From Bacteroides mediterraneensis (GTDB taxonomy: Bacteria; Bacteroidota; Bacteroidia; Bacteroidales; Bacteroidaceae): a stretch of 64,000 bases of DNA. The notes under the pieces were generated by a model. It ran no database searches. It saw only the letters and a program-made list of their open reading frames with translations, and had not been told where the DNA came from. Below, one piece after another: positions 1-38,237 of the stretch (positions are counted from its first letter, which is position 1; each line of letters opens with the position of its first letter). The translations under genes and the position numbers were made by a program. The stretch is from positions 62,001 to 126,000 of the forward strand of contig NZ_JACJKA010000004.1 in assembly GCF_016900355.1 (NCBI RefSeq), written 5' to 3'.

Positions 1-3000
1 TCAATCAACCGTTCCAGGACTTCCCAGCAACACGGTATGGACCTTAATGGACGACCAAAGAGGAAATCTGTACATTGGGCATCACGAGAATGGAATGAGC
101 ATCCTGTCGTTAAAGACGAAAAAAGTCAAGAACTTCACCTACGACGGCTCGAACGAAAAAACTCTACCCAACAACAACGTACAATGTATATTCAAAGACA
201 ATACAGGAAATATATGGGTAGGCACCGGTAAAGGACTTGCTCTGTTCAACCCCGAAACTGAAGAGTTTATCCGCTTGGGTGATAAAGGTTCCCCACTCTC
301 CCATCTCATTTATGATATACAACAATTCAATGAGCATCAGTTATGGGTAGCTACTGAATTCGGAGGTATCTCCATCATAGATCTCTCCAGAAGCCTGTTT
401 AACACCACAGAAAAGATTCACCTCATACAAGCAGGTGACAATGAATACAGCCTCAACAACGCTACAGTGCGATGCTTGTTCCAAGATTCCCACCAGAATA
501 TCTGGGCAGGTACCTGGGGAGGAGGAGTCAACTTCCTCAGCTCCAATACCGCCTTATTCAAGTCGTTCAGTTACTCGTCCAGTTCACCCGGCAGCAACCT
601 GAATGCCCACATTGCCAGCGCAGTCTGCATCGACTTGCAAGGTAACCTATGGGTAGGAACAGACGGCGGAGGCATCAATGTTCTGAAAAACGGACAACGC
701 ACGGCTACCTATACCGAAGCCAACAGTGGCCTCAGCGGAAACTCCATCCAAACGGCGCTGTGTGACCGGAAAGGCAACCTGTGGTTCGGCATCTTTAATG
801 GAGGAATTATGTACTACAACATCTATTCCAGGACCTTCAAGCAAGTTTTCCCGAAAGAAGAGAGCAATCACGATGTCCGTTCGCTTTTTGAAGATCAAGA
901 AGGAATTATCTGGGTGGGAACCAGTGAGGGAGTCTTTCAAATCGACAGAGATTCCCAGAAAATCCTGCACCATTTCAATACGCCCGACAACCTGATTCGT
1001 ACGGTCATCAAGGATCAAAAAGGCCAAATATGGATAGGAAGTTTCGGAAGAGGAATTTTCCTCTATTCGGCCGATCAAAAGCATTTGAAAGACTTCAATA
1101 CTTACCTCGATTTTCCTTCCAATACCATCAACCAGATTTTTGAAGATTCCCAAGGAACCATATGGGCTGCCACCGGGGAGGGGCTGGTACAGTTTGAAAA
1201 CCAATCGCCCTGGACATATAAGGTCTACCAGCGAAACGAAGGACTTGTCAACACCTTCATTTGGGCTATTACAGAAGATGAAGCACACAACATCTGGTTC
1301 AGTACCAACCAAGGAATCAGCTGTTTGTCCAAAGACCGGAAGCGCATCTATAATTACGATTATAGAGACAATATTCCCATGGCCAGCTTTACAGGAAGAA
1401 GTGTTTGCAGGGACGTGAACAATACTATTTATTTCGGTTCTACCGACGGACTTTGTTATTTCACCCCCAGTCAGATACTGGAAAAAAAGCAATGCCCCCA
1501 AGCTATCATCGGAAAAATTACAGTCTTTGAACCCATGACATCCGACGATAGTGATGAAACAGAATATTCACTCTTCAACAAAAAGGAAATCAAACTAAAG
1601 TACGTACAAAATAATTTCAGCATCACATTCAACATACAAGACTATTCCCTGAATGAAAGAGTGGAATATGCCTATATGCTAAAAGGACTGGAAGACTCCT
1701 GGTACACCGTAAAAGATCCTAACAATGTGACTTTCCGTAACCTGCCCCCGGGAAGATATGAATTCCAGGTTAAAACCCGCATCCGGAACCAAGAATGGTC
1801 TGACGAAATCTCACAGATAGAAATCGTCATTGCTCCCCCGCTCTGGCTGTCCTGGTGGGCAAAACTTCTGTACGTGATAGCAGGAGTCGGAATTCTCATG
1901 GGAGTCTTTTCGGTTTATAAACGCAAACTAAACCTGGAATACTTGTACGAATCGGAAAAGAAAAGCCACGAACAGGAGCAGAAACTGAATGATGAACGGC
2001 TGAGATTTTTCACCAACATCACGCACGAACTGCGCACACCGCTTACCTTAATATTAGGTCCCTTGGAAGATATGGTAAAAAACAGCAGCCTGTCCGCCAA
2101 AGACCATCACCGGATTTCGGTCATCTATCAAAGTGCCGTACGCCTGCTGAACCTGATTAACCAGATTCTGGACTTCCGCAAAACGGAAACCCAGAATAAG
2201 AAACTGTGTGTCGCCAAAGGAAACCTGACCAGTGCTGTATATGAAACTGGGCTGAAATACAAGGAATTGAACAACAACCCGAATGTACAGATACTCATAG
2301 AAGTGAAAGAAGAGAACATGATTCTATTCTTTGACAAGGAAGTCATCACCATGATTCTGGACAACCTGATTTCAAACGCCCTGAAATATACCGAGAAGGG
2401 CTATGTCCGTATCCGTGCCGAATGGGTGACGGAAAATGACGTACGATACGCCCAGCTTTCCGTGGAAGATACCGGTTATGGCATCGGAAAGGAAGCACTT
2501 GCGCACGTCTTTGAACGATATTATCAGGAAAGCGGAGAGCATCAGGCCTCGGGTACAGGAATCGGACTGGCACTGGTCAAGAACTTAGTTACGCTGCATG
2601 AAGGAGACATACAGGTGAAAAGTCAGCCCGACATCGGTACCATCTTCTCCCTGCGCCTGAAAGCCAACAATACCTATCCACAGGCGTTGCATGGAGAGGA
2701 CGTACATACAGATACACCGGAAGTAAAGGAGGAGAATATAGAGAAACTGGAGGCAGCAGATTCGTCTAAAGACTCAAAACCCATCGTTCTGGTAGTAGAA
2801 GACAATGCAGACATCCGGGACTATATTGCCGATGCCTTTACGGATTTATATGAGGTAAAGACTGCTTCCAACGGCAAGGAAGGACTGAAGATTGCCACAG
2901 ACTGTGCTCCCGACATTGTGGTGAGCGACATTATGATGCCAGTCATGAACGGCATCGTAATGTGCCAGAAGCTGAAAACGGATATCCGTACCAGCCACAT

Positions 3001-3604
3001 CCCTGTCATCCTCCTGACAGCAAAAGACAGCATCACCGACAAGGAAGAAGGTTATCAGGCAGGGGCCGACTCCTACCTCACCAAACCTTTCAGTGCCAGC
3101 CTGCTGCAAAGTCGAATCAGTAACCTGCTGGCACAGAGAAGACGACTCTCGGAACGCTTCTCTATCCGGCCGGAAACCCCACAGAAGCAAAGCATGGAAG
3201 AAAAAAGAGCCATCATTACAGAATCCATGAACAAGCTGGACAAAGAATTCCTGGACAAAATAACCAACATCATCACGGAAAGTCTTTCTACTGCGGAAAA
3301 TGTGGATATTACCGTATTGTCTAATGCTTTATGCATGAGCAGCTCTACCCTCTACCGGAAGGTCAAAGCACTTACGGGCATGTCTACCAACGAGTATATC
3401 CGGAAAATCAAGATGCAGCTGGCCGAGAAATACCTGCTGGAAGGCAAATATACCATCTCTGAGGTTGCTTTCAAGGTGGGAATCAACAGCAATGTCTATT
3501 TCCGGCAGTGTTTTAAAGAGGAATTCGGAATGTCGGCTTCCGAGTACCTGAAGAAGCTGACAGGCAAATCCATCGAAGAAAATACAGACAAAAAAGAAAG
3601 CTGA
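1..3604 (+). CDS. Hybrid two-component system regulator (sensor kinase + receiver + AraC), 5' end cut off
   Basis: One-piece polysaccharide-utilisation regulator. The reading frame is open to the window edge, so the N-terminus is missing; about 1200 residues remain. Seen: about eleven Reg_prop propeller repeats of the type GNLWVGTDGGGI up to about base 1490, a Y_Y_Y-like domain to about 1840, one membrane segment (about 1850-1920), a HisKA box FFTNITHELRTPL with phospho-His at 2024-2026, an HATPase domain (DNLISNALKYTEKG, GTGIGLALVKNL), a receiver with phospho-Asp at 2927-2929 (SDIMMPVMNG), and an AraC-type helix-turn-helix to the end. Members of this family bind a glycan fragment in the periplasm and activate an adjacent utilisation locus. 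That locus is not in the window and probably lies to the left. A palindrome array starts 3 bases after the stop codon. Confidence 0.97.
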   Translation, partial: QSTVPGLPSNTVWTLMDDQRGNLYIGHHENGMSILSLKTKKVKNFTYDGSNEKTLPNNNVQCIFKDNTGNIWVGTGKGLALFNPETEEFIRLGDKGSPLSHLIYDIQQFNEHQLWVATEFGGISIIDLSRSLFNTTEKIHLIQAGDNEYSLNNATVRCLFQDSHQNIWAGTWGGGVNFLSSNTALFKSFSYSSSSPGSNLNAHIASAVCIDLQGNLWVGTDGGGINVLKNGQRTATYTEANSGLSGNSIQTALCDRKGNLWFGIFNGGIMYYNIYSRTFKQVFPKEESNHDVRSLFEDQEGIIWVGTSEGVFQIDRDSQKILHHFNTPDNLIRTVIKDQKGQIWIGSFGRGIFLYSADQKHLKDFNTYLDFPSNTINQIFEDSQGTIWAATGEGLVQFENQSPWTYKVYQRNEGLVNTFIWAITEDEAHNIWFSTNQGISCLSKDRKRIYNYDYRDNIPMASFTGRSVCRDVNNTIYFGSTDGLCYFTPSQILEKKQCPQAIIGKITVFEPMTSDDSDETEYSLFNKKEIKLKYVQNNFSITFNIQDYSLNERVEYAYMLKGLEDSWYTVKDPNNVTFRNLPPGRYEFQVKTRIRNQEWSDEISQIEIVIAPPLWLSWWAKLLYVIAGVGILMGVFSVYKRKLNLEYLYESEKKSHEQEQKLNDERLRFFTNITHELRTPLTLILGPLEDMVKNSSLSAKDHHRISVIYQSAVRLLNLINQILDFRKTETQNKKLCVAKGNLTSAVYETGLKYKELNNNPNVQILIEVKEENMILFFDKEVITMILDNLISNALKYTEKGYVRIRAEWVTENDVRYAQLSVEDTGYGIGKEALAHVFERYYQESGEHQASGTGIGLALVKNLVTLHEGDIQVKSQPDIGTIFSLRLKANNTYPQALHGEDVHTDTPEVKEENIEKLEAADSSKDSKPIVLVVEDNADIRDYIADAFTDLYEVKTASNGKEGLKIATDCAPDIVVSDIMMPVMNGIVMCQKLKTDIRTSHIPVILLTAKDSITDKEEGYQAGADSYLTKPFSASLLQSRISNLLAQRRRLSERFSIRPETPQKQSMEEKRAIITESMNKLDKEFLDKITNIITESLSTAENVDITVLSNALCMSSSTLYRKVKALTGMSTNEYIRKIKMQLAEKYLLEGKYTISEVAFKVGINSNVYFRQCFKEEFGMSASEYLKKLTGKSIEENTDKKES

Positions 3605-3606
3605 AA

Positions 3607-3732
3607 AAACGGACTTGCGTTTCAGACAAAACGCCTTTACGTTTGAATGCAAACGCCCTTGCGTTTCACCCAAAACGTAAGGGCGTTTTACTTTAAATGC
3701 ACTTGTGTTTGATACCAAACGCAAAGGCGTTT
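3607..3732. repeat. Array A: six 16-bp near-palindromes at exact 22-bp spacing
   Basis: Units start at 3607, 3629, 3651, 3673, 3695 and 3717, each 16 bp, separated by 6-bp spacers. Examples are AAACGCCCTTGCGTTT (3651) and AAACGTAAGGGCGTTT (3673, opposite orientation). The outer AAAC/GTTT arms are conserved (AAAT in the 3695 unit) while the centre varies. The array begins 3 bases after the stop codon of the hybrid regulator and ends before the secDF terminator, between two convergent genes. The same element recurs at 36514-36639. It is not a CRISPR array, because the spacers are only 6 bp and the units are self-complementary and degenerate. Confidence 0.95.
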
Positions 3733-3758
3733 TCCGGACATCGGAAAAAACCATAAAA

Positions 3759-3791
3759 AAACGGCTGCCTTCACGCGGAAAACAGCCGTTT
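3759..3791 (-). terminator. Intrinsic terminator of secDF
   Basis: A nine-pair stem, AAACGGCTG (3759-3767) with CAGCCGTTT (3783-3791), is followed on the minus strand by seven T residues. It lies 25 bases after the secDF stop codon. Confidence 0.85.
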
Positions 3792-3815
3792 CTCAAACAT
3801 TATATCAGATTCTTA

Positions 3816-6815
3816 TTATGCTTCTTCTACTTCACCTACTTGTTTCGGCATCTTGTGTCCCATAGTCAGGTAAGCTACCGGGGCAGCCACGAACAAAGAA
3901 GACAATGTACCGATTACCACACCCAGAATCATGGCGAATGCAAAGCTACGGATACTGTCACCACCCAGGATGAAGATACTCAGCAACACAATCAAGGTAC
4001 TCAAAGAAGTGTTGATGGTACGGCTCAAAGTGGTGTTCAGCGAATCGTTGAACAATTGCGTACGGTCACGTTTCGGATACAAGCCGATGAACTCACGCAC
4101 ACGGTCGAAGATAACCACCTTATCATTGATAGAATAACCGATTGCAGTTAGGATGGCTCCGATGAATGTCTGGTCTATTTCCAGAGAGAACGGCATCCAT
4201 CCGTGACACAAGGAGTATGCTCCGATAATCAGCACAGTATCTACCGTCAATGCAACCGTAGCACCAATACTGAAGGCAATGTTGTTGAAACGAACCAAGA
4301 TATACAGACCAATGGCAATCAAGGCCAGTGCCACTGACCATACAGCTGAAGTCTTAATATCATCGGCGATGCTAGGACCTACCTTCTGAGAACTGATGAT
4401 AGAACCTCCGGCACGGTTATCACGGTCGATGAAGATTTCGAGCGTAGTACCCTTGCCCAGCAAGTTACCTTCTTTCAATGCATTGTAAAGGAACTCTTCG
4501 ATTTCGGCATCGATTGTCGGAGAATCTTCGTTGATGCGGTAGTTGGTCGTCACACGGATAGTCTTTCCATCTGTACCCAAGGCAATGGCCTGTACGTTGG
4601 CATCTCCCACTTTCGGCTGCAGCAGGTCACGTACGGTTTCCGGCTGTACCACCTGTTCAAACTGAACCACGAAGTTACGTCCACCGGTGAAGTCGATACT
4701 CTGTGCCAGTCCGCGTACAAAGAAAGAAACGATACATACTACAATGATAATCGCCCAAATCGTAAACGAACGTTTGGTGATACCCATGAAGTTATAGTGT
4801 ACATTCTGCATCAGGTTCTTTGAAACGCCTGTAGTGAATGTCAGGTTCAACCATTTGTCCTTATTCATAAAGTGTTCGTAAACCAGACGAGTCAAGAACA
4901 CGGCTGAGAAGAACGAACAGAGGATACCGATAATCAAGGTAGTGGCAAAACCACGAATCGGACCGGTACCGAAGTTGAACAGGATAACACCTGTGATGAT
5001 AGAAGTCAAGTTAGAGTCGAAGATGGCAGAGAACGCGTTCTTGTAACCTTCGGCCAAAGCCTGCTTGGTTCCCTTGCCTGCACGAAGCTCTTCTTTCGTA
5101 CGTTCATAAATCAATACGTTCGCATCCACGGCCATACCCAGTGACAACACCATACCGGCGATACCAGACATCGTCAAGGCAGCCTGGAAAGAGGAAAGGA
5201 TACCCAGTGTGAAGAAGAAGTTGATGAACAACGCACCGTTGGCCACCATACCCGGAATGAATCCGTACATCACACACATGTAAGCCATCAAGACAATCAA
5301 AGCCACGATGAAGGATACGATACCCTGGTTGATAGATTCCTGTCCCAAAGACGGACCTACGATGTCTTCCTGTACGATACGAGCCGGAGCCGGCATCTTA
5401 CCGGATTTCAACACGTTGGCCAAGTCTTTTGTGACTTCCGGAGTAAAGTTACCCGTAATCTGTGAATTACCACCGGTAATTTCAGAGTTTACACGCGGTG
5501 CACTGTATACATATCCATCCAATACGATGGCGATTTCCTTACCGATGTTCTTCTTTGTCAGGGCAGCCCAACGACGAGAACCTTCTGTGTTCATTGACAT
5601 GCTGACGCACGGCTTGTTGAACTGGTCATATTCGTCTTTGGCGTCTGTTACTACATCACCTTCCAACGGCGCACGTCCGTTACGTTCAGTCGACTTGATG
5701 GCATACAATTCGAAGATACGTCCGGTCTTGTCCATATCGGAAGCTTTCACACCCCACATCAGTTTCAGGTCGCGCGGCATCACTTCCTTCACGGCCTTCA
5801 TGTTCAGAATGCGGTTCACATCCGCTGTATCTTTATAATCGGCATAACCTACGATACAACCTACTCCGCTCTGGTTCAGCTGCAGTACAGACAACAACGG
5901 ATGTTCTTTCTTCATCTGTTCCATATCTGCACTGGAAGCAGCCGGTGTCTCTCCCTTCAGGGCAGCCGTCAAGCTGTCTTTGGCAGAAACGGCAGAAGCC
6001 TGAGCCACTGCAGTCGTATCGGCTTCAGCCTGTACAGAATCAGCAGGAGCCTCGTTGTTCAGCAAGCCACGGGCACGGTTGTCGGCAGAAGCCAATACCG
6101 GCACGATATCTTTTGCTTCGAAAGTTTCCCAAAATTCCAGGTTGGCAGAACCCTGCAAGAGTTTTCTCACACGTTCCGGTTCCTTGATACCCGGCAGTTC
6201 CACCATGATACGGCCCATCTTTCCTTCCAGTGTCTGGATGTTCGGCTGAGCCACACCAAAACGGTCGATACGTGTACGCAAAACATTGTAAGAGTTGTCT
6301 ACGGCAGCTTTTACTTCCTCGCGCAATACTTTCTCAACTTCTGCATCTGTACTACGGGTATTCACTTTGTCTTTCAACTGCTGGGTGGCAAAAAGTTCAG
6401 CAAGTTTGCCTTCCGGAGCCAGTTTCTTGTATTCTCTGATAAACAGGGTCACGAAATCTTCCTGACTGTTAATCTGCAATTTGGCAGCTTCAGCCACAGC
6501 CTTGTTAAAGGCTTCATCCGGTTTGTTGTCGGCCAACGCCTTCACTACGTCCGGTACGGAAACCTCCAGAATGACGTTCATACCACCTTTCAGGTCCAAA
6601 CCCAACCCGATTTCCATCTCACGACATTGTTTCAGCGTGTAAATCCCCAACCACACCTTCTGATTCTGCATGGAATCCAGGTAATGTGCCGAACCCTTCG
6701 GGTCCTCAGCCGCCTTGTTCATCTGATAACGGGTAACGAATGAGAATGAAAGGTAAAAAGCACACGCAAGGGTCAGTAATACCGCAAAAACCTTTACAAA
6801 TCCTTTGTTTTGCAT
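3816..6815 (-). CDS. secDF: SecD-SecF fusion, protein translocase accessory subunit
   Basis: The 999-residue protein joins SecD and SecF in one chain, as is usual in Bacteroidetes. It sits in the inner membrane next to SecYEG and uses the proton gradient to pull exported proteins into the periplasm. Seen: N-terminal membrane segment, SecD motif IGLGLDLKGGMNV near residue 70, a long periplasmic P1 region that includes an Ala/Ser-rich low-complexity stretch (about 245-305), a six-segment SecD membrane bundle containing GMVLSLGMAVDANVLIYER, then a second bundle starting near residue 680 with the SecF motifs DFTGGRNFVV and AIGYSINDKVVIFDR. It is monocistronic: a -7 box lies at 6871-6878 and a terminator at 3759-3791. 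Confidence 0.98.
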   Translation of the reverse strand: MQNKGFVKVFAVLLTLACAFYLSFSFVTRYQMNKAAEDPKGSAHYLDSMQNQKVWLGIYTLKQCREMEIGLGLDLKGGMNVILEVSVPDVVKALADNKPDEAFNKAVAEAAKLQINSQEDFVTLFIREYKKLAPEGKLAELFATQQLKDKVNTRSTDAEVEKVLREEVKAAVDNSYNVLRTRIDRFGVAQPNIQTLEGKMGRIMVELPGIKEPERVRKLLQGSANLEFWETFEAKDIVPVLASADNRARGLLNNEAPADSVQAEADTTAVAQASAVSAKDSLTAALKGETPAASSADMEQMKKEHPLLSVLQLNQSGVGCIVGYADYKDTADVNRILNMKAVKEVMPRDLKLMWGVKASDMDKTGRIFELYAIKSTERNGRAPLEGDVVTDAKDEYDQFNKPCVSMSMNTEGSRRWAALTKKNIGKEIAIVLDGYVYSAPRVNSEITGGNSQITGNFTPEVTKDLANVLKSGKMPAPARIVQEDIVGPSLGQESINQGIVSFIVALIVLMAYMCVMYGFIPGMVANGALFINFFFTLGILSSFQAALTMSGIAGMVLSLGMAVDANVLIYERTKEELRAGKGTKQALAEGYKNAFSAIFDSNLTSIITGVILFNFGTGPIRGFATTLIIGILCSFFSAVFLTRLVYEHFMNKDKWLNLTFTTGVSKNLMQNVHYNFMGITKRSFTIWAIIIVVCIVSFFVRGLAQSIDFTGGRNFVVQFEQVVQPETVRDLLQPKVGDANVQAIALGTDGKTIRVTTNYRINEDSPTIDAEIEEFLYNALKEGNLLGKGTTLEIFIDRDNRAGGSIISSQKVGPSIADDIKTSAVWSVALALIAIGLYILVRFNNIAFSIGATVALTVDTVLIIGAYSLCHGWMPFSLEIDQTFIGAILTAIGYSINDKVVIFDRVREFIGLYPKRDRTQLFNDSLNTTLSRTINTSLSTLIVLLSIFILGGDSIRSFAFAMILGVVIGTLSSLFVAAPVAYLTMGHKMPKQVGEVEEA

Positions 6816-32577: not shown

Positions 32578-32644
32578 AAATCCCCAGTTTTATATAAAGC
32601 TGCCTCGAAAATACCAACTTTTTCTTTTTCTACAAAAAAACGGG

Positions 32645-32711
32645 CAAAAAAAATGGGAGAACGCTTTCTCCCAACCTTGTTAACCTTAAATCTAATACTA
32701 TGAAAAAAATC
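32645..32711 (-). ncRNA. Candidate short RNA or attenuated leader ending in a strong terminator
   Basis: On the minus strand a good promoter (32718-32749) is followed after about 40 bases by an 8-pair stem, TGGGAGAA (32654-32661) with TTCTCCCA (32666-32673), and then a run of eight T residues. The expected transcript is about 65 bases. It ends about 70 bases before the fimbrial regulator, for which I find no other promoter, so it could be an attenuator. I do not recognise an RNA family. Confidence 0.5.
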
Positions 32712-32717
32712 ACGTTG

Positions 32718-35672: not shown

Positions 35673-36362
35673 TTAGCAAGCACCGCAACCCATCAAACTC
35701 TTGATGAAGAATACCACAGCTACCAGCATGAAGCACAGTACGATAATGGTAGAATAGATGTTAGAGATGCATTTCCAGCGGTTAATCCAGATGGTGTTGT
35801 TCCAACCCAGTGTCTGCATAGCGCTCCAGAAACCGTGAGTCAAGTGGAACCACAAGGCAATCAGCCAGATGATGTACAGTACAAAGAACACCGGATTAGA
35901 GAATGTCTGCAGGATGTAGCCATAACCGTCGGCTGCATCAAGACCTCCCATCATCGGGTTGCCTACAATTTCAGCAAACTGCATTTTGCTCCAGAAGTTC
36001 ACGAAGTGAAGAACCAGACCCAAAATTACGATGATACCCAGTACCAGCATGTTCTGAGAAGCCCATTCTACCGTTTTCGGTTTTGATGTCACTGCATAAC
36101 GTTCGTGACCGCGTGCGGCACGGTTCAGCATCGTCAGCCAGAAAGCGTAGATGATGTGAATTACAAACAGGGCAGCCAGTCCGACAGTAGCTACCAGTGC
36201 ATACCAGTTAGCGCCGAGGAACTCACAGACCATGTTGTATGCCTCGCCCGAGAACAATGCAACAAGGTTCATCGCCATGTGAAATGTCAGAAACAGGACA
36301 AGGGCGATACCTGTGACGCTCATCACCACTTTCCTTCCAATAGATGAATTACTTAACCACAT
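35673..36362 (-). CDS. sdhC: Succinate dehydrogenase/fumarate reductase cytochrome b subunit
   Basis: A 229-residue membrane protein with five hydrophobic segments, of the single-subunit cytochrome b558 type. Candidate haem-ligand histidines lie in FLTFHMAMNLVAL, FVIHIIYAF, LVLHFVNFW and FHLTHGFWSAMQ. It anchors the flavoprotein and iron-sulfur subunits to the inner membrane and exchanges electrons with menaquinone. First gene of the operon; a promoter with both boxes lies at 36432-36463. Confidence 0.95.
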   Translation of the reverse strand: MWLSNSSIGRKVVMSVTGIALVLFLTFHMAMNLVALFSGEAYNMVCEFLGANWYALVATVGLAALFVIHIIYAFWLTMLNRAARGHERYAVTSKPKTVEWASQNMLVLGIIVILGLVLHFVNFWSKMQFAEIVGNPMMGGLDAADGYGYILQTFSNPVFFVLYIIWLIALWFHLTHGFWSAMQTLGWNNTIWINRWKCISNIYSTIIVLCFMLVAVVFFIKSLMGCGAC

Positions 36363-36513: not shown

Positions 36514-36639
36514 AAACGCAAGTGCGTTTGAAACAAAACGCCGAAGAGTTTTGATCCAAACGCACTTGCGTTTTAGGGAAAACGTCCTTGCGTTTTACTT
36601 GAAACGTACTTGCGTTTCAGGACAAACGCACTTGCGTTT
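36514..36639. repeat. Array B: six 16-bp near-palindromes at exact 22-bp spacing
   Basis: Units start at 36514, 36536, 36558, 36580, 36602 and 36624. Two are identical, AAACGCACTTGCGTTT (36558 and 36624). Others differ mainly in the centre, for example AAACGTACTTGCGTTT (36602). The array begins 8 bases after the ctpA stop codon on the minus strand. The last unit in that direction is followed by seven T residues, so it could also act as the ctpA terminator. Number of units, unit length and period equal those of array A. Confidence 0.96.
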
Positions 36640-36647
36640 TTCCGGGC

Positions 36648-38237
36648 CTATCTTTTAGGGAAATTCATGCCGGGCTGGCGCAGCAGTTCCAGTGCCTTTT
36701 TCATGCTGTCGCTCAGCGTATTAATCACCTGGAAGTACTCGTTCATGTCCCAGATGTCGCGGGCCAGCAGGGCCTTCAGCTGGGTCTTTATCAGCGGCAG
36801 GGCGGTCTGGAACTGGGCTTCGTCATACTTCACGCCCAGCGAAGTACCTTGTGCCACCAGCTCGTCGAGCATCTCCTTGGTCACTTCAAACTCGCGGTTG
36901 AAACGGTCGAAGGTCTTGTAACGCTTGAGCCATTCCTGCCGGTGACGGTCGATGAGCTTGATGTTCAGCTGTACCATGGCTCCCTTGTCGCGCAGAGCCA
37001 GGTAGTAGTCGGTGTACATCGTGGTATCGATGGGCACAAAATAGTCGGGCATGATGCCTCCACCGCCATACACGGTACGTCCTAACTTCAGGGTCTTGGC
37101 CTTGAGCGAATCGGGGAAATGGATGCTGTCGGCACTCATCATCTCGCCGCGGTTGTAGCGGTCAATCAAATCCTGGTTGTATTTTTCGATGCTCTCGTAA
37201 GGTTTCTGGATGCAACGGCCCGAAGGAGTGTAGTAGCGGGCTACGGTCAGGCGGATCATGGAACCGTCGGGCAGGTCGATGGGACGCTGCACCAGTCCTT
37301 TTCCAAAGGTACGCCGACCGACCACGATACCGCGGTCCCAGTCCTGGATGGCTCCGGTGACAATCTCACTGGCCGAAGCGGAATATTCGTCGACCAGTAC
37401 CACCAAACGACCTTGCTGGAAATCCCCGTCGCCTTTGGCCTCAAATTCCGACCGCGGGTTGCGGCGGCCTTCGGTGTAGACAATGAGTTCCTTTGCTCCC
37501 AATATCTGGTCGCACAGGCTGATGGCCGCATTCAGGTAACCGCCGCCGTTGCCTTGCAAGTCGAGTATCAGGTCTTTCATGCCTTGTTTCTGCAATTTAT
37601 GCAGGGCATCCGTGAATTCCTTGGCGGTAGTGGCCGCAAAACGGTTCACGCGGATGTAGCCAATCTGTCCTTCCACCATGTAGGAAGCGTCGAGACTGTA
37701 TACGGGAATCTTGTCGCGCTTGATGGTGAACGGCAGGAGTTCCTTCACCCCGGCACGCAGCACTTTCACCGTCACCGTGGAGCCTTTCGGTCCGCGCAGA
37801 CGGCGCATCACTTCGTCGGTGTTCATCTTCACGCCGGCAATCACCGTGTCGTTCACTTCAATGATGCGGTCGCCAGCCAGGATACCGACCTTCTCGGAAG
37901 GTCCTCCCGATACGGGCTGGATGACAAACAGGGTATCGGTGGCCATGTTGAACTGGATGCCGATACCGTCGAAATTTCCCTGAAGGGGTTCATTGAGGCG
38001 TTTCACTTCTTCCGGGTCGGAATAGGTGGAATGCGGGTCGAGCTCTTCGAGCATGCTGACAATGGCGGTTTCCACCAACTTGTCTTCGTCTACTTTATCT
38101 ACATAAAGATTGGAAATGGCAAACTCCGCCAACTGCAACTTGCGCGAAGGGGAGTCGAGCAGTCTGTTCTGTGCAGGCAGGGCCGTCCAGGCAGCCAGTC
38201 CGCAACAGAACGCCAAAACATATTTGCTGATTTTCAT
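36648..38237 (-). CDS. ctpA: C-terminal processing peptidase, S41 family
   Basis: A 529-residue periplasmic serine protease. Signal peptide to LPA, then Gln (QNRLLDSP). Seen: PDZ domain with FDGIGIQFN and GPSEKVGILAGDRIIEVND, then the S41 catalytic core with serine in VLVDEYSASASEIVTGA and lysine in RRTFGKGLVQRP. Such enzymes trim exported proteins at their C-terminal ends. It is the last gene of a minus-strand run (GNAT-like, parE, coaD, ctpA), 12 bases after coaD, and has palindrome array B directly behind its stop codon. Confidence 0.96.
   Translation of the reverse strand: MKISKYVLAFCCGLAAWTALPAQNRLLDSPSRKLQLAEFAISNLYVDKVDEDKLVETAIVSMLEELDPHSTYSDPEEVKRLNEPLQGNFDGIGIQFNMATDTLFVIQPVSGGPSEKVGILAGDRIIEVNDTVIAGVKMNTDEVMRRLRGPKGSTVTVKVLRAGVKELLPFTIKRDKIPVYSLDASYMVEGQIGYIRVNRFAATTAKEFTDALHKLQKQGMKDLILDLQGNGGGYLNAAISLCDQILGAKELIVYTEGRRNPRSEFEAKGDGDFQQGRLVVLVDEYSASASEIVTGAIQDWDRGIVVGRRTFGKGLVQRPIDLPDGSMIRLTVARYYTPSGRCIQKPYESIEKYNQDLIDRYNRGEMMSADSIHFPDSLKAKTLKLGRTVYGGGGIMPDYFVPIDTTMYTDYYLALRDKGAMVQLNIKLIDRHRQEWLKRYKTFDRFNREFEVTKEMLDELVAQGTSLGVKYDEAQFQTALPLIKTQLKALLARDIWDMNEYFQVINTLSDSMKKALELLRQPGMNFPKR

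Follow-up and report, generated by a model that had tools for sequence, protein, structure and literature searches.

Phased arrays of 16-bp near-palindromes with a 22-bp period, mostly at gene ends, in Bacteroides mediterraneensis and its relatives

Short palindromes phased for cooperative dimers are known from the met boxes of MetJ, the ARG boxes and the TyrR boxes, which belong to few operators and lie at promoters; CRISPR arrays consist of near-identical repeats (~23-50 bp) with unique spacers, and are accompanied by cas genes. Among dispersed palindromic repeats, the REP/BIME class is defined, in the available part of its source, by an unpaired GTAG or CGTC tetranucleotide at the foot of the palindrome (PMC3733652). 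Atypical REPs were reported for Bacteroidetes enzymes of the TnpA-REP subclass 2.6, according to the accessible portion of that account (PMC6006769). BrickBuilt, as far as the available text of its report describes it, is a minisatellite MITE of Porphyromonas gingivalis, built from a 23-nt direct repeat with no spacers and having a leader and a tail with terminal inverted repeats (PMC4596501).

We analysed a window of 64,000 nucleotides of Bacteroides mediterraneensis DNA, which contains two arrays of short near-palindromes (arrays A and B). The arrays and their neighbours are as follows:

47-3604, plus strand: gene of a hybrid two-component regulator (Reg_prop, HisKA, HATPase, Response_reg and AraC-type HTH domains; start as given by the ORF tool)
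3607-3732, no strand assigned: array A, six 16-bp near-palindromes at a 22-bp period, five of the six with exact arms
3756-3794, minus strand: hairpin with a T tract, the probable secDF terminator
3816-6815, minus strand: SecDF translocase gene, convergent to the hybrid regulator and facing array A
35673-36362, minus strand: gene with a weak Sdh_cyt match (25.4 bits against a cut-off of 25.8), its start 151 bases from array B
36514-36639, no strand assigned: array B, six units at a 22-bp period, five of the six exact
36648-38237, minus strand: S41-family peptidase gene, its stop 8 bases from array B, which lies on its 3′ side

The initial annotation had described array A as six units of the form AAACG(n6)CGTTT at an exact 22-bp period. 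Direct reading of the window places the unit starts at 3607, 3629, 3651, 3673, 3695 and 3717, which confirms the period; the form holds exactly for five units, but the fifth (3695) reads AAATG-CACTTG-TGTTT, with two mismatches. The TGA of the hybrid regulator occupies 3602-3604 and array A begins 2 bases later, not 3 bases after the stop as first annotated. Array B, which was absent from that annotation, has one arm mismatch in its unit at 36536. With at most one mismatch allowed, the window holds 12 unit matches against a shuffle mean of 2.48 (largest 6), and 11 of these 12 fall in the arrays (five in A, six in B). A consensus terminator scan of 3560-3830 gave two hits, the minus-strand hairpin at 3756-3794 and a plus-strand hairpin at 3617-3634 formed by array A itself; apart from the latter, this one scan found no plus-strand terminator with a T tract 3′ of array A, in agreement with what had been noted before. 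A relative with no array at the secDF site (G311) has a hairpin similar to that at 3756-3794 there. Array A matched Rfam families only below the gathering score. The one Rfam match at the gathering score in the window lies away from the arrays, at 32643-32713 on the minus strand, and belongs to the FopS family of paralogous Bacteroidetes sRNAs (69.2 bits, cut-off 56).

Similar to the operator arrays of MetJ, ARG and TyrR, the arrays repeat short palindromes in phase, with conserved inverted half-sites that vary independently; they differ in numbering dozens per genome, in lying mostly at gene 3′ ends and in that their protein is putative. Unlike CRISPR arrays, they consist of variable 16-bp palindromes with 6-bp gaps. 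Intrinsic bidirectional terminators are likewise inverted repeats, flanked by runs of A and T and located between convergent genes, but the arrays show no excess of compensated changes inside units, avoid perfect symmetry (in seven species sets) and in some cases lie between divergent genes. With the REP/BIMEs (such as the BIMEs of E. coli) they share the features of high-copy, intergenic (extragenic), clustered palindromes of lineage-specific sequence, often at gene ends; they have, however, a rigid 22-bp lattice where REP/BIMEs have variable linkers, and their presence follows clades in the genus tree. No conserved foot tetranucleotide, GTAG or CGTC, was seen in the arrays, whose spacers follow only a loose pattern (BRNNYV, see below), and a RAYT/Y1 gene flanked by the repeat, as in GTAG REPs, was not found in eight array-rich genomes. 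BrickBuilt resembles the arrays as a dispersed tandem repeat of nearly equal length in Bacteroidales, but the arrays have a period of 22 and a sequence unrelated to its published consensus, the two being compared by eye (PMC4596501). Searches of the open-licence literature, by description and with six literal unit sequences, returned nothing describing the element by title or abstract, and the earlier view that it is not a described element holds within that literature.

The motif is abundant well beyond the window. In G000, the 3.53-Mb genome to which the window belongs, searched as a whole, there are 250 exact AAACG-N6-CGTTT units against 10 for the reversed control, and 242 two-unit 22-bp windows (at most one mismatch) against 0, an excess over chance in the kind of search that the initial annotation had proposed. 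From these unit and window counts we estimate roughly 50 arrays, and array A is confirmed as a genuine array, one of many in its genome. Six units are present in 14 of the 26 distinct G000 arrays read, five in 11 and four in one; this sample comprises loci retrieved by pattern searches together with the two arrays of the window, is not a random draw, and includes two arrays near contig starts.

The fixed spacing, which had also been proposed as a check, recurs at other loci. Among unit steps of up to 70 bp at the G000 loci, 109 of 110 equal 22 bp; the corresponding counts are 237 of 246 in the named loci (the others being 21, 43, 44 or 8 bp), 44 of 45 in G334 and 74 of 74 in G324, all of them biased, since most of these loci were retrieved with 22-bp patterns. 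In an unbiased set, 400 kb of G224 chosen regardless of arrays, 22 of 22 steps are 22 bp, and 15 of the 44 units, counted from 9 of 10 matching arm letters upwards, are solitary. When ~777 kb were scanned openly, with periods of 17-33 allowed, three strict palindromes in a row turned up only at 22 and at its harmonic 33. Steps of 44 bp, in which an inner unit has fewer than 9 of 10 arm matches, are rare, so that there are few decayed inner units. Six base pairs separate the two arms of a unit, and six separate neighbouring units, so that the arrays form an 11-bp lattice of alternating inverted half-sites. One genome, G261, has 29 single units (control 7) and yet only one two-unit 22-bp window, that is, units outside a lattice.

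Comparison of orthologous arrays revealed identity at 483 of 507 arm positions (95%, a figure inflated by the recognition of units through their arms), 251 of 306 core positions, 173 of 237 spacer positions (73%) and 628 of 789 flank positions (80%, some of the flank bases being coding). This count covers 11 orthologue comparisons at six loci, in which G000 was set against G224, G336 or P. plebeius; the locus pairs L038, L041 and L007, in which unit-to-unit orthology is doubtful, were omitted. Conserved outer arms with drifting centres, as originally described, are supported by these loci. Orthologues differ in length by whole units (6, 6, 2 and 0 units at the secDF site; 4, 5, 6 and 5 at another locus). 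G311, the sister of G336 on the tree, has no array at two loci, one of which is secDF; at the other, an 83-bp gap with a canonical hairpin takes the place of the six units of G000 and G224.

The cores and spacers follow rules of their own. Only one of 437 exact-arm units, over seven species sets, has a perfectly palindromic core, against ~82 expected from half-word frequencies; this avoidance is not universal, as G112, the MAG DGSN and G518 have palindromic cores. Other species keep the arms and the period, but core words, which members of a species share, change from one species to the next (G112, for example, has TCCGTT, and G196 has CTTCGG). Spacers loosely obey BRNNYV (not A, purine, N, N, pyrimidine, not T), which is met by 63% of them in G000, against 12% expected from flank composition, and by 51-90% over the seven species sets. 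Within arrays of the G000-like group unit orientation looks random (102 adjacent pairs alike, 92 opposite), and in the same group we observed no pattern of orientation relative to transcription.

Gene positions were taken from a custom hexamer-based ORF caller rather than from standard annotation, and the p values given throughout are nominal, per single test. Among 108 arrays with gene calls, four overlap a called gene, 10 lack one neighbour and 94 have both; 29 of these 94 lie between convergent genes, 50 between codirectional and 15 between divergent ones, and arrays lie at a median distance of 53 bp from stops and 160.5 bp from starts. The background, from a single species, was 400 kb of G224, in which 176 gaps are 60 bp or longer (28 convergent, 101 codirectional, 47 divergent). 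Compared with it, the 44 arrays of the G000-like group (17 convergent, 25 codirectional, 2 divergent) are enriched between convergent genes (p 0.0016) and depleted between divergent ones (p 0.0009); the 49 arrays of G324 and G334 (23, 17 and 9, respectively) are enriched between convergent genes as well (p 3e-5), and the 25 arrays of G196 and DWVR (3, 15 and 7) show no convergent bias. The array lies within 40 nt of the stop at 76 of 171 gene-end sides, and a canonical terminator precedes it at 31 of the 91 sides with a gap of 40-400 nt. The proposal that copies would be almost always intergenic and 3′ of stops thus holds in part: the arrays are mostly intergenic and often just past stops, but the divergent gaps are an exception to it.

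The two-unit pattern is present in 29 of the 61 genomes of the genus, and a match to the reversed control in none. Array presence follows clades: on an unrooted secDF tree of 30 genomes (the best 30 of the 61 by BLAST match; branch support moderate, 69/90), the label "arrays" (15 genomes with at least 9 windows) needs one change, against 10.4 in shuffles. Outside the genus, an even draw of 301 genomes of the family gave counts mostly near or below those of the controls. A carrier scan found at least 90 stretches, and each of the 80 listed has a Bacteroidota name; the named carriers among the matches listed include B. mediterraneensis, Phocaeicola plebeius, P. barnesiae, Bacteroides caecigallinarum, Prevotella veroralis and the flavobacterium Kaistella chaponensis. 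With a looser frame, four AAA-N10-TTT units 22 bp apart and one mismatch allowed, 20 of 247 genomes of the order gave hits. The reversed control of this frame was unclean (e.g., 22 vs 11 in G002, 8 vs 3 in G434, 39 vs 0 in G503), so the assignments rest on inspection by eye: nine are AT-rich noise, palindromic words were seen in G000, G002, G365, G377, G396, G414, G434, G518 and G569, and G502 and G574 fell outside the inspection. When 20 regions of this kind were refetched, the array scan recovered arrays in all but L388, L389 and L392; of these 17 arrays, three overlap a called ORF and that of G434 (L393) is doubtful. Along contig C1 of G224, the array places listed look crowded at 1.0-2.25 Mb and sparse at 2.25-3.1 Mb, and with GC skew in 20 stretches we found no simple relation that would indicate an origin-terminus pattern.

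We propose, with a probability of about 0.45, that the arrays are platforms on which a putative dimeric protein may bind cooperatively at gene ends. Inverted half-sites (AAACG and its complement) would then be offered every 11 bp in alternating orientation, on approximately one face of the helix, and copies of this one protein would occupy them side by side. The resulting nucleoprotein block would sit mainly at gene 3′ ends, between convergent genes in several species, and could be an architectural or boundary element, e.g., a roadblock separating neighbouring transcription units. Rows of protein-binding DNA sites agree better than RNA hairpins do with half-sites that are conserved and vary independently, with the strict helical phase and with the avoidance of perfect hairpins in most sets, and the places of the arrays suggest a boundary or architectural task. 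Cooperative binding of a dimer had been put forward in the initial annotation; arm conservation, drifting centres, strict phase and gene-end position, all read from the sequences, are consistent with it, and the hairpin alternative offered there survives as hints. Several observations argue against a protein platform: only 3 of 25 arrays are convergent in G196 and DWVR, unit-to-unit complementarity is in excess in the 3-unit species although a simple row of binding sites needs none, and in the seven sets the core vocabularies are species-specific and avoid symmetry, which an indifferent gap would not do. The two G311 loci with no array, one with a canonical hairpin instead, and the changes and T runs described next also speak against it.

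Bidirectional transcription terminators, or RNA elements of the 3′-UTR, would account for the arrays if the transcribed units folded into consecutive hairpins with a T tract after them; we consider this improbable. The arrays are close to stop codons, with an A run before and a T run behind; of the 76 sides within 40 nt of a stop, 44 have an array that scores as a terminator in the sense direction, and at the G311 locus a canonical hairpin replaces the array of G000 and G224. Folded as RNA, five arrays reach z scores of -5.4 to -11.5 against dinucleotide shuffles; G000 arrays, however, gain nothing in stability over arrays with a shuffled vocabulary, as 55 of 60 shuffles were equally stable. 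We read the arrays between genes of one direction in transcript sense (65 arrays, 270 units, excluding JAFYWH and CALUPA as likely duplicates of G324 and G334) and found no overall bias to G-U over A-C at pairs 1-6 inside units (79 vs 92, p 0.36); between nearly complementary units the counts run against pairing (105 vs 148, p 0.008). Arm pairs 1-5 taken separately do tend towards G-U (30 vs 16, p 0.054); of the 65 arrays, 33 have a T run downstream that is longer than their upstream A run, and 19 the opposite. Over the seven species sets, the units with both arms changed do not exceed expectation (5 against 8.3), and three of these five units are compensated, too few to judge. T tracts are frequent, and there is no sign of selection of the hairpin type inside the units; with perfect palindromes avoided in seven sets, 15 of 94 arrays divergent and a terminator already ahead of the array at about a third of the spaced gene ends (31/91), a run of RNA hairpins is not supported as the general role. 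Complementarity at the scale of the array is the further hint of an RNA role. Full 16-nt reverse-complement unit pairs occur in 10 of 24 arrays of G334 (1.3 expected) and 10 of 15 of G196 (4.8 expected), and in 5 of 36 of G324 (5.8 expected), where cores alone give 15 against 9.5 (p 0.027). As a general rule it fails, holding in the 3-unit G334 and G196 and partly in G324, but not in G000, G224, DWVR or CAMFND; fold energies split in the same way. Replacement of terminators by arrays was examined at convergent genes: another terminator is present in 15 of 45 convergent array gaps and in 17 of 34 controls (p 0.17), a difference in favour of a terminator role that is suggestive only.

The arrays could also be a dispersed, non-autonomous MITE- or BIME-like repeat, copied whole by a putative mobilising enzyme or by recombination, the palindromes being its recognition sites rather than of use to the host. 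We hold this to be rather unlikely, with the lineages giving different answers. Near-identical 60-bp arrays with unrelated flanks (judged by eye) occur in G334 and G196, and similar array pairs are in excess in G334 (15 of 276, 1.2 expected), G324 (23 of 435, 5.4 expected) and G196 (5 of 105, 0.7 expected); most of the nine G518 arrays resemble copies of one four-unit element. In G000, in contrast, similar pairs are not beyond chance (0 of 325, 1.6 expected in shuffles), and there is little excess in DWVR (3 of 66, 1.8 expected). The G324 near-copies L259 and L262 have one flank in common, and in none of the array pairs inspected was a target duplication visible. Several arrays hold orthologous places among species, and presence follows clades. 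The exact three-unit pattern occurs in one viral contig. A BLAST search of plasmid and phage collections with a 151-base array A query gave no match, which is weak evidence, the query being short and divergent. PF01797 (Y1_Tnp) was found in 6 of the 61 genus genomes, one of which (G303) carries a few arrays, and in none of the eight array-rich genomes checked (G000, G224, G336, G196, G304, G324, G311 and G334, two or more of them incomplete). Among genomes of other families, 6 of 10 have a Y1 transposase. A frame scan of 26 Y1 loci, which misses some arrays (e.g., L076), found no AAA-TTT array at 22 bp, and a RAYT/Y1 transposase is thus unsupported as the driver in the genus. Whole-array spread in some lineages, together with complementarity in the 3-unit species, indicates that copying plays a part and keeps this explanation alive. 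Highly improbable, finally, is a reading in which the units are oriented sites on which a site-specific recombinase acts, or some other enzyme needing symmetric arms around an asymmetric 6-bp core. Asymmetric cores in 436 of the 437 exact-arm units (seven species sets), and core words shared within and differing between species, would agree with such sites; but 5-bp arms are short for known tyrosine recombinases, the 22-bp spacing would leave no room for neighbouring synapses, orientation within arrays of the G000-like group looks random and other species have palindromic cores.

Tandem repeats were looked for at 7 of the 26 Y1 loci; three have periods of 33 (L269), 42-43 (L355) and 66 nt (L358), and in the other four no longer repeat was seen. 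The atypical REPs of TnpA-REP subclass 2.6 resemble the arrays in phylum, in weak palindromes lacking GTAG and in further genomic copies, as far as the available part of the source goes (PMC6006769), but the periods at the Y1 loci differ and the 22-bp array at L358 has other arms. At L269 (516-1309, G293) the 33-nt repeat carries an AACCTC-AAA-GAGGTT-like hairpin and is possibly an atypical REP of this subclass. At L358 (2145-2205, G518), three GTTGA-N6-TCAAC palindromes lie 22 bp apart near the Y1 transposase gene, with an identical 5-6-5-6 geometry and quite different arms. An empty-site comparison for the G196 array L145 was abandoned, the intergenic region being too diverged; adjoining this array, 2395-2680 of L145 is ~85-98% identical across many genomes of the genus and is perhaps a structured RNA.

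A wider form of the protein-platform reading, which we regard as doubtful, is that chromosome-wide 5-6-5-6 lattices of phased half-sites are present in many Bacteroidales, and in one species or more of the Flavobacteriales, and that a putative, fast-evolving architectural protein marks gene boundaries through them. Geometry and outer bases are kept over orders and the inner words rewritten in each species, which would suit a DNA-binding protein of this kind. If it is true, the lattices would represent a chromosome-organising or transcription-insulating system in bacteria with no described relative. Even binding of a protein to the arrays would mean that common gut bacteria hold a dense, overlooked layer of chromosome organisation or of transcription boundary control; if the arrays are mobile, they would be a palindromic repeat class that spreads in the absence of the RAYT enzyme to which such spread is usually ascribed. 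In either case a natural contrast is at hand within a single genus, between the clades with arrays (15 genomes) and those lacking them (15 genomes).

Two longer rows carry a record of their own growth. In L391 (1478-1691, G414), a ten-unit array contains a block of units repeated in identical order, a trace of local multi-unit duplication. In L043 (11525-11790), an IMG/VR contig, a row of ~12 units at 22 bp has its unit types in successive blocks, as if multiplying locally.
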